Assembly: GCA_938007965.1 (NCBI GenBank) | Contig: CALLMH010000052.1 | Span: 46,105 to 110,104, forward strand | DNA from: an uncultured Saprospiraceae bacterium | Lineage (GTDB): Bacteria > Bacteroidota > Bacteroidia > Chitinophagales > Saprospiraceae | DNA: 64,000 bases | Direction of reading: 5' to 3' | Shown here: one piece after another, positions 42,899 to 46,739 of the stretch | Position numbering within the stretch: position 1 is the stretch's first letter | Layout of the letters: the number at the start of each line of letters is the position of its first letter | The notes under the pieces: model-generated | Database searches by the model: none | Seen by the model: the letters and a program-made list of their open reading frames with translations, nothing else | What the model was told of the DNA's origin: nothing | Made by a program: the position numbers and the translations under genes

Positions 42899-44185
42899 TT
42901 ATCTATCGATTTGTATGTTTATATCTAGCCATTCTTCTAGGGTATTTATGAATAGCGATTTCTCATTGGCCGTCATATTGCTTATTCTAGCATTACCATG
43001 ATGCTTATCTTTCATGAAAAACCACTTAGAGTTTACCTTGTCGGAAGGCGGCACTGCTGTTGCGGACCATGTGTCTAGGGCTCCATTTATATAGAGCATA
43101 TTATTGCCTTTTTCTTCTATCCACTTAGCGGCTTTATTGGTGATAGTGCCGTCCCACTTTACTTCCATTTTATTAGGTACAAACGCAGCATGCGGATGAG
43201 GTTTGTAATCCAGGTGATTCAGTAATCCTTCGAAGTCTTCTGTTTCAAAACCATAATATCCCATTTGATTCGCAGATTGATAATAATGAGAAGAGAATTT
43301 TTGCATTTCTATATCAGAGTAGAAGTCGAGGCCGACTATATTTAGTAGGTAATCGACCTGTGTGGTTAAGTTTGCATCCTCAGGAATCTTAGAACAGTCG
43401 TTCCCATATTGCCAAAATGAAAAGGGAAGTTCAAGCACCGAATACTCATACGCTTCTCCTAATGTAAAGTAGTTAAATTTTAGATTGCGACCTTTTACGT
43501 ACCATTCTAGCATTGATAGTACTTGATCACTATTTTTTAATAGATCTTTTTGGAGGTCAAGTAAGTCATTCCTGCATTCTTCCGAGCCTATATTATCTAA
43601 GAAGTCATAGATTCTCTGCTCTTCATATTCGTAGTTTAATGGTGCTACATAAGGTATCGATACATCTACATCATCCGGATAGAAGTATTTGTATAGTATC
43701 GTAGTGGTGCCTCCTTTACTGATCCCAGTAGAGATCCATTTGCCAGTATTGATTTCGTCGAATAGTGTTCTTATCCTGTGTAAATCTGCTGTAACTTGTT
43801 CAAAGTTGAGGTATTGATAGTCGACCGAGTCAGGCATACTTTCTCCGAAATATCTGTGCTCCACATTGAGCTGATTTGCTTCTGTAAGTGTTGCGACTTC
43901 CGTGATGTTATTTCTACCTTTTTCGTACCCATTTGTTATGATAGCTGTAGGTTTATCATATTGGATATGACTGTAATAGACTTTCTGATAAAAATAACCA
44001 GCATCTTGATTTTGATGGTCTAAGGGTTGTTTGATCATTAGTTTGTAAGCGGATTCATAGCCTTCGGGTGTTTCTATTTTTGTGAAAATCACATCAGGTA
44101 ACTCAAATAGCTTTTTCTCCAGTTCAGATTGGGAGAAGAGCGTAGTCAATAGACAACAAAGAATCAAGGTGTAATTGTATTTCAT
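42899..44185 (-). CDS. S28-like serine aminopeptidase (PS-10 type)
   Basis: 428 aa. Signal peptide MKYNYTLILCCLLTTLFSQ. The alpha/beta-hydrolase peptidase core carries IKQPLDHQN, LNVEHRYFGESMPDS (oxyanion region), the nucleophile elbow STGISKGGTTT (Ser in GISKGG), the acid in NGALDTWSATAVPP, and the catalytic His region DKHHGNARI. These are the features of the S28/PS-10 group, which includes Streptomyces tripeptidyl aminopeptidase and prolyl peptidases, so it should trim peptides outside the cytoplasm. It lies 36 bp downstream of the DMT transporter gene on the same strand, suggesting one transcript; peptide breakdown outside and uptake or export across the inner membrane would fit but is not proved. 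Confidence 0.82.
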   Translation of the reverse strand: MKYNYTLILCCLLTTLFSQSELEKKLFELPDVIFTKIETPEGYESAYKLMIKQPLDHQNQDAGYFYQKVYYSHIQYDKPTAIITNGYEKGRNNITEVATLTEANQLNVEHRYFGESMPDSVDYQYLNFEQVTADLHRIRTLFDEINTGKWISTGISKGGTTTILYKYFYPDDVDVSIPYVAPLNYEYEEQRIYDFLDNIGSEECRNDLLDLQKDLLKNSDQVLSMLEWYVKGRNLKFNYFTLGEAYEYSVLELPFSFWQYGNDCSKIPEDANLTTQVDYLLNIVGLDFYSDIEMQKFSSHYYQSANQMGYYGFETEDFEGLLNHLDYKPHPHAAFVPNKMEVKWDGTITNKAAKWIEEKGNNMLYINGALDTWSATAVPPSDKVNSKWFFMKDKHHGNARISNMTANEKSLFINTLEEWLDINIQIDR

Positions 44186-45127: not shown

Positions 45128-45158
45128 TTAAAAAAGCCGCCCTTGGGTAAAGGCGGCT
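45128..45158 (-). terminator. Rho-independent terminator after the hydrolase-like gene
   Basis: Minus-strand stem agccgcc/ggcggct (extendable with one mismatch) followed by TTTTT, 22 bp beyond the stop codon at 45180. It separates the TonB-receptor operon from the DMT transporter gene. Confidence 0.85.
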
Positions 45159-45179: not shown

Positions 45180-46739
45180 TTATTCAAACGTTACCTTTTT
45201 GGTAGCGATGCCTTCATCAAAGTAGGCTTTTACAAAATAAATACCAGTTGGTAGATTGTTTCGTTGAACGATTACACGCTCAGCATTTACGTTAGTAATT
45301 TGATTGTATAATCTTCCATCGATCCCAAAGATAGCAATAGAATTTATATTTTTACCTTTTGCTTCTACTTTTATATCTGTAGACGCAGGATTAGGCGATA
45401 GTGTCATTACAGAAGGGTCAAGTATATCCGTAACATTGATAGAACTGTCTAAGTATACTTCGAATCCAGGTAATTCCATAGTCACCATTGCTCTAGGAGC
45501 ATAATACCCAATGATAGAGTCCATGTATGTTGTTCCTTTTTCGAATGATGCATCAGGATTATTTGCTCTACTCAATAAGTCCCAGTTACATTCAGTAAGA
45601 GGAATCATCATGTCAGCACATTGTTGTGGTTGTGACATTGACCAGAATGCTGCATCCCACCAGTCCCAAGGACTACTTTCTTCTGCGGCTGGAGTATTTG
45701 GGTCACCATCTAGATCCCAGTTTGGTCTTACGAGAGGGTACAAACCTTCATTTCCTTCATTGTTTTGAAGTGCAGATTCTGTTTGTGGATCATTGTAGAT
45801 TGTTCCTATGGTGAAATCACCATTGATCCCCAATTCAGTTGCTCTTTCTTGAAGATCAAAAGAACCAGATACTTCTACTACTAAGTCACCCGTCGTAGGT
45901 ACGATAAGGAAATCTGTGTTGTATGGTGCAAATGGATCAGTCGGTACATGTACAGATACAATAGGAGTATCATCAGCATCTAACCAAGATAGATCTCCTA
46001 GTGCTCCACCCATATTTACCGTAAGGCTGATATCATTAGAAAAACCTACGTGATTAGGTATATTGATAACCGCCATGTTCTCACCAAATGGATCTCCATG
46101 TACTGACTCGATTACCATAGGTACTTGATCTGCGTTGATAAACTTAGGTAGTACTACATCACTATATGTATCAATAGTCCCAGCACCAAGAGTTATGTAT
46201 CCTCCAGTTCCTACTCCCCAGTTGACGATATCTGTACCGTTGATTCCATAAGGATTTCCTTCTTCAACTGACTTTCTGAAAAATCTAGTCGCTGCATGCG
46301 AATCTTGAACGCCTCTATAAGCAGCATTGATCAATGTTTCAGTTCTTACATCTTGGTCAGGTGAGATTGGATTCCATCCTAGTCTGTATCCGATAGATGC
46401 TACGACATAACCTCTTCTAACGAGTCTTTCGATCATATCTACTAAGTAAGGATCATTTTTGTTACCATTAATTTGACCATTTACCAATTGTGGTAGAAAG
46501 TTACCTGTATGAAATACCTTAATCAGTGGTCTTTCTGTCTCCGTATCTCCTGCGGGAGTGTACAAGTCAAGTTTTAAATCTACTGGTACTGGCATTCCTG
46601 TTAATACTTCTACATTAGTAGCATATACAATATCCGTCTGTACATCTACATCTGTAAATACCTCATCTACATATCTTGTTTGAGCATTAAGCCCTAAGAA
46701 GATAAATGAGAATAATGTTAGTGTAAAAATTCTTTTCAT
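45180..46739 (-). CDS. T9SS-sorted alpha/beta-hydrolase-like protein
   Basis: 519 aa. Signal peptide MKRIFTLTLFSFIFLGLNAQ. The N-terminal ~200 residues resemble secreted esterase/lipase-like proteins: LKLDLYTPAGDTETERPLIKVFHTGNF, LVRRGYVVASIGYRLGWNP, AAYRGVQDSHAATRFFRKSVEEG. At the usual nucleophile elbow it reads WGVGTGGYITLGAG, so the GxSxG Ser is replaced by Gly; activity is doubtful. The middle is unrecognised. The C-terminus is a T9SS type A sorting domain (MTLSPNPASTDIKVE...LPTGIYFVKAYFDEGIATKKVTFE). It begins 41 bp after the TonB-receptor gene on the same strand, so the two likely form an operon in which this protein handles or binds the receptor's substrate at the cell surface. Substrate unknown. 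Confidence 0.75.
   Translation of the reverse strand: MKRIFTLTLFSFIFLGLNAQTRYVDEVFTDVDVQTDIVYATNVEVLTGMPVPVDLKLDLYTPAGDTETERPLIKVFHTGNFLPQLVNGQINGNKNDPYLVDMIERLVRRGYVVASIGYRLGWNPISPDQDVRTETLINAAYRGVQDSHAATRFFRKSVEEGNPYGINGTDIVNWGVGTGGYITLGAGTIDTYSDVVLPKFINADQVPMVIESVHGDPFGENMAVINIPNHVGFSNDISLTVNMGGALGDLSWLDADDTPIVSVHVPTDPFAPYNTDFLIVPTTGDLVVEVSGSFDLQERATELGINGDFTIGTIYNDPQTESALQNNEGNEGLYPLVRPNWDLDGDPNTPAAEESSPWDWWDAAFWSMSQPQQCADMMIPLTECNWDLLSRANNPDASFEKGTTYMDSIIGYYAPRAMVTMELPGFEVYLDSSINVTDILDPSVMTLSPNPASTDIKVEAKGKNINSIAIFGIDGRLYNQITNVNAERVIVQRNNLPTGIYFVKAYFDEGIATKKVTFE

Follow-up and report, generated by a model that had tools for sequence, protein, structure and literature searches.

What does an esterase-like protein do once its nucleophilic serine is gone? 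The question is raised by a gene in a 64,000-nucleotide stretch of a contig from an uncultured Saprospiraceae bacterium (hereafter, the window), whose product, here called the pseudo-esterase, is encoded next to a TonB-dependent receptor (Table 1). A first-pass annotation of the sequence had described it as a T9SS-sorted surface protein retaining the flanking elements of the esterase fold but lacking the nucleophile, and had suggested that it could be a non-enzymatic, ligand-binding partner taking the place of a SusD-like protein.

Table 1. Features of the pseudo-esterase locus (positions refer to the window)
Feature	Position	Strand	Remarks
TonB-dependent receptor, 957 aa	46781..49654	(-)	CarbopepD_reg_2 N-terminal extension, plug and barrel; near-obligate neighbour
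Pseudo-esterase (partner protein), 519 aa	45180..46739	(-)	T9SS-sorted
Signal peptide, residues 1-20, ending in AQ	46680..46739	(-)	Sequence and modelled helix 2-17; putative cleavage site
Alpha/beta-hydrolase (BD-FAE-like) domain, residues ~22-340	45720..46676	(-)	PF20434 and fold matches; end approximate
Oxyanion-loop equivalent HTGNFLP, residues 77-83	46491..46511	(-)	HGG or FGG in active-type relatives
Codon 177 (GGA, Gly), nucleophile position of the elbow	46209..46211	(-)	
Codon 268, Asp of the former triad	45936..45938	(-)	Kept in 48/50
T9SS type A C-terminal sorting domain, residues 449-516	45192..45395	(-)	TIGR04183 and PF18962
Intrinsic terminator, just after the pseudo-esterase gene	45135..45158	(-)	10-bp stem and T run; fold z-score -4.6

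The pseudo-esterase combines an N-terminal hydrophobic helix with a C-terminal T9SS type A domain. Sorting by the T9SS, as claimed at first pass, is borne out by TIGR04183 (40.8 bits, cut-off 23) and by PF18962, which also scores above its cut-off. This sorting domain is found in 40 of 41 members of the pseudo-esterase family and predicts a location at the cell surface, and the AQxRY junction following the signal peptide is conserved across the family. The BD-FAE domain, PF20434, begins at residue 57 and is only narrowly above the cut-off in the window protein (28.7 versus 26.8); it is matched by 41/41 family members.

A structure model had been suggested in the first-pass annotation as a means of locating the nucleophile elbow. 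In the AF2 model, which draws on 41 homologues and has a mean pLDDT of 88.8, this elbow is at residue 177, where strand 166-176 gives way to helix 178-188, and the top matches of the model among solved structures are 6xyc and 6tkx, both of BD-FAE. This enzyme acts on feruloyl and acetyl esters with the triad Ser128-Asp237-His269 (PDB 6TKX/6XYC, PMC8165983). The pseudo-esterase shares with BD-FAE the alpha/beta-hydrolase fold, the elbow, and the position of the Asp, but differs from it by the absence of Ser and His, by an altered oxyanion loop, and by its additional T9SS domain and fixed TonB receptor neighbour.

Residues 175 to 180 of the pseudo-esterase read GVGTGG, so that the elbow motif GxSxG is replaced by GVGTG, exactly as first described. 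We aligned 86 homologues, comprising 50 members of the Ser-less, or dead, clade and 36 more distant proteins serving as the outgroup. Position 177 was Ser in 36/36 outgroup sequences and in none of the 50 dead-clade members (45 Gly, 3 Asn, 2 Asp). In a second, family-wide sample, which has several genes in common with the first, Gly was found at this position in 26/26 loci. The catalytic His, expected behind the last core strand, is present in 34 of 36 outgroup sequences but in no dead-clade member (0/50), and the GG of the oxyanion motif has become TG in 43 of the 50 (HTG in the window protein versus HGG). Triad Asp268 is kept in 48/50 and His77 in 46/50 dead-clade members. Thus, the statement that the flanking fold elements are kept holds for fold, elbow, and Asp, with the refinement that the His is gone as well and that the oxyanion HGG has turned into HTG.

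A tree computed after removal of the catalytic columns and rooted on the outgroup sets the dead clade apart by a single branch (support 100). As the triad is standard across the wider fold family, the Ser and His changes would represent a loss rather than a gain. The window's own genome also encodes two Ser-intact homologues. Another Ser at the elbow with Asp and His in range was looked for and not found: Ser/Thr178 was rejected as a replacement nucleophile because it occupies elbow position +1, varies between T, S, and A, and has no His available. Tandem or extra pseudo-esterase copies were likewise rejected as candidates for having regained the Ser, since they carry Gly or Glu. Measured as a serine esterase, the pseudo-esterase has the BD-FAE fold but neither the Ser of GxSxG nor the catalytic His. 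We conclude that it has lost the Ser-hydrolase triad and is no classical Ser hydrolase.

What the dead clade has preserved instead is a set of loops. W122, F200, and R416 are invariant and specific to this clade, as is P83 in 49/50 members, and D146, D249, and R416 are its invariant polar residues. The invariant or near-invariant G79, F81, and P83 follow strand 70-76, and Y118, R119, G121, and W122 follow strand 112-116; further such positions are G175 to G180 as well as G245, D249, and W252, located after strand 239-243. Judging by fold topology, these positions probably gather on the former active-site face, and few parts of the protein are as highly conserved as the loops of this site. Since these loops stay conserved while the residues defining a hydrolase are gone, binding is the likeliest role.

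The receptor gene lies 41 nt upstream of the pseudo-esterase gene on the same strand, and a strong terminator closes the two-gene unit in the window, in line with the operon link stated at first pass. The receptor scores 102 bits against the SusC/RagA model TIGR04056 (cut-off 368) and 17 against the signature TIGR04057 (cut-off 46), failing both, and the folds closest to its model (pLDDT 82) are BtuB, Cir, and PfeA, with XusA (9gbc) also among the matches. Hence, the receptor is not of the SusC type and resembles BtuB/siderophore-type barrels. Pfam detected no SusD match in the pseudo-esterase and the two-gene unit contains none; four SusD matches were found elsewhere in the same genome. A helical insertion of the receptor (residues ~440-560), considered as a docking site, was left hypothetical: it is the part most divergent between paired and unpaired receptors, yet it varies fast within the paired ones.

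A search for TonB receptors paired with the same partner, also suggested at first pass, showed that this arrangement is widespread. Among 298 Saprospiraceae genomes, 182 carry both genes, 4 the partner only, 8 the receptor only, and 104 neither (partner in 186 and receptor in 190 genomes; single-gene genomes were counted by comparing the partner list with the receptor list). The Fisher P value of this co-occurrence is 9e-65, a statistic that ignores the shared ancestry of these phylogenetically related genomes. The partner gene was situated directly downstream, at a distance of 18 to 336 nt, in 93/94 receptor genes listed, with the one exception at a contig edge. Conversely, a receptor of the same family was encoded directly upstream on the same strand in 45 of 48 fetched dead-clade loci, the other three being a locus at a contig edge, a genome with the receptor on a different contig (G038), and a second partner copy (G004). 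The partner gene is usually single-copy and lineage-wide, and the pair is also present in Flavobacteriales/Cryomorphaceae MAGs. The partner is therefore near-obligately co-encoded with one TonB receptor family. Tree congruence was rejected as evidence of contact between the two proteins, because the distance correlation (r = 0.86) is expected from shared descent alone.

Beyond the two genes, little is constant. Lineages differ in the gene order beside the pair, and none of its neighbors is conserved along with it. A peptidase S37/S28-like protein of the alpha/beta-hydrolase family is encoded two genes downstream of the pseudo-esterase (window positions 42899-44185, strand (-)); such a gene adjoins the pair in a single relative, the closest one (L038/L084, one genome), and is thus not part of it. 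No riboswitch, cobalamin riboswitches included, was found near the pair as a clue to the ligand, and no upstream DNA motif was common to many lineages, shared words being mostly AT-rich.

Several Bacteroidota systems invite comparison. The two-gene logic of receptor plus surface partner is that of SusC-SusD (RagA-RagB), but the receptor described here falls below the SusC/RagA cut-off and its partner has a BD-FAE fold instead of a SusD domain. BtuG is a non-SusD surface lipoprotein that partners BtuB in vitamin B12 uptake (PMC10404256). The likeness lies in the combination of a transporter with a non-SusD partner, and BtuB is among the best barrel matches of our receptor; however, BtuG is a lipoprotein, whereas here an alpha/beta-hydrolase carries a T9SS signal and no cobalamin riboswitch was found. 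XusB, the lipoprotein surface partner of XusA in xenosiderophore uptake (PMC13142918, PDB 9gbc), provides a similar parallel, with a siderophore-type TonB transporter and a dedicated surface partner, although XusB again is a lipoprotein and not a T9SS-sorted hydrolase fold. By analogy of function rather than by demonstrated homology, the pseudo-esterase may work like BtuG and XusB. Of the earlier idea of a non-enzymatic partner replacing SusD, the absence of classical Ser hydrolysis and of SusD from the pair stands, but the receptor is not SusC-type, and BtuG and XusB are the closer parallels. An earlier description of the pseudo-esterase/TonB receptor pairing was not found in the open-access literature searched.

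Together, the conserved former active-site face, the T9SS signal, and the fixed transporter suggest that a ligand is captured on the cell surface and then handed over. The reading that we favor, and hold to be probable, is that this dead, T9SS-exported BD-FAE relative serves one TonB transporter family as a dedicated extracellular, non-catalytic ligand-capture partner. The pseudo-esterase would be located on the outside of the cell, above or next to the receptor with which it would form a complex; its remodelled former active-site cleft would capture a small-molecule ligand, which might then be passed to the transporter in a lid-like manner, as from BtuG to BtuB and from XusB to XusA. A micronutrient is weakly favored over a polysaccharide as the ligand, considering that the pair is usually single-copy and lineage-wide, has no conserved cluster around it, and includes a BtuB/siderophore-like barrel. 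The pair might even stand for a new type of uptake system in Bacteroidota, one that employs a dead alpha/beta-hydrolase, exported by the T9SS and not as a lipoprotein, as the lid that captures the substrate for its TonB transporter, and that is widespread in Saprospiraceae and present also in Flavobacteriales/Cryomorphaceae MAGs; we consider this reading about as likely as not.

Other explanations account for parts of these data. The missing Ser, and nothing more, would point to a decaying pseudogene or a sequencing artefact of an ordinary esterase, a notion refuted by the conserved dead state and to be given practically no weight. GGA is two base changes away from any Ser codon, which excludes a single sequencing error as the cause of Gly177; moreover, Ser is absent in 50/50 clade members, reading frames are full length and free of stops, and a dN/dS of ~0.12 against two close relatives indicates purifying selection, so the pseudo-esterase is not decaying. 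It is more conceivable, albeit unlikely, that the protein is still an enzyme, which would process the ligand before the receptor takes it up, using non-serine chemistry that could involve Asp268, His77, or a metal bound to the protein. The retention of these two residues and the invariance of polar D146, D249, and R416 fit such a role, but Asp268 and His77, being shared with Ser-intact relatives, do not constitute a new active site, the catalytic His is absent throughout the clade, and since the nucleophile position accommodates Gly, Asn, Asp, or Glu, no side chain is required there.

The main rival of ligand capture is a protein-binding or adhesion module resembling neuroligins, which would not bind the transported ligand but cap, gate, or stabilize the receptor or tether the cell. 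Dead esterase folds are known to turn into adhesion proteins, neuroligins being without cholinesterase activity, and neuroligin-4 is a weak profile match to the pseudo-esterase (E = 6.5e-4). This likeness, the reuse of an esterase fold without catalysis, is one of analogy only, as neuroligins are eukaryotic, membrane-anchored, and have no TonB receptor. Conservation of the former active-site loops exceeds the need of a pure scaffold, though it is still compatible with a protein ligand, and we regard the adhesion module as rather improbable. Far less probable still is a role of the pair in signalling or regulation at the surface, with the partner sensing a ligand and the receptor relaying it. 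TonB receptors with an N-terminal signalling domain do act as transducers, but the receptor in question has a CarbopepD_reg_2 extension and no STN/secretin-type domain in the Pfam result, and with no flanking gene conserved across lineages, no dedicated sigma/anti-sigma gene travels with the pair.

TonB transporters of Bacteroidota commonly have surface partners, and those compared here (SusD, BtuG, and XusB) are not esterases. With this pair, present in ~62% of the sampled Saprospiraceae genomes, a pseudo-enzyme that reaches the surface by another route would join their number, and two concrete genes are at hand for a direct search for the ligand. It also calls for caution, as the Pfam esterase annotation here covers proteins that are not enzymes of that type.

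Some further observations concern relatives of the two genes and the wider locus. Of the 36 Ser-intact homologues, one was seen directly behind a TonB receptor (GASAGA elbow; L139, 4248-8797). This receptor is different from, and distant to, the paired family (171 bits versus ~1190 or more for full-length members), and the arrangement possibly reflects the pairing of a receptor with an active esterase, either independently or at an earlier stage. One Ser-intact paralogue in the genome of the window adjoins a SusC-like/SusD pair on the opposite strand (L089, 2857-9114). An alternative partner was sought for unpaired lower-tier receptors, of which the next genes read looked unrelated by eye (arginase-like, transporter, glycosyltransferase, subtilisin-like); in three genomes (L116, L118, and L120), such receptors lie behind a gene for a large protein of 948 to 983 aa. 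Tandem pairs of partner genes occur in the genomes of L195, L196, and L197, with Glu at the nucleophile position in some copies, and a 1328-aa protein encoded directly after a receptor fragment at a contig edge (L043, 543-4526) contains two tandem dead esterase domains, both with GxGTGG. Elsewhere in the window, a single 7990-aa open reading frame (10423-34395, strand (-)) probably encodes a giant surface protein.
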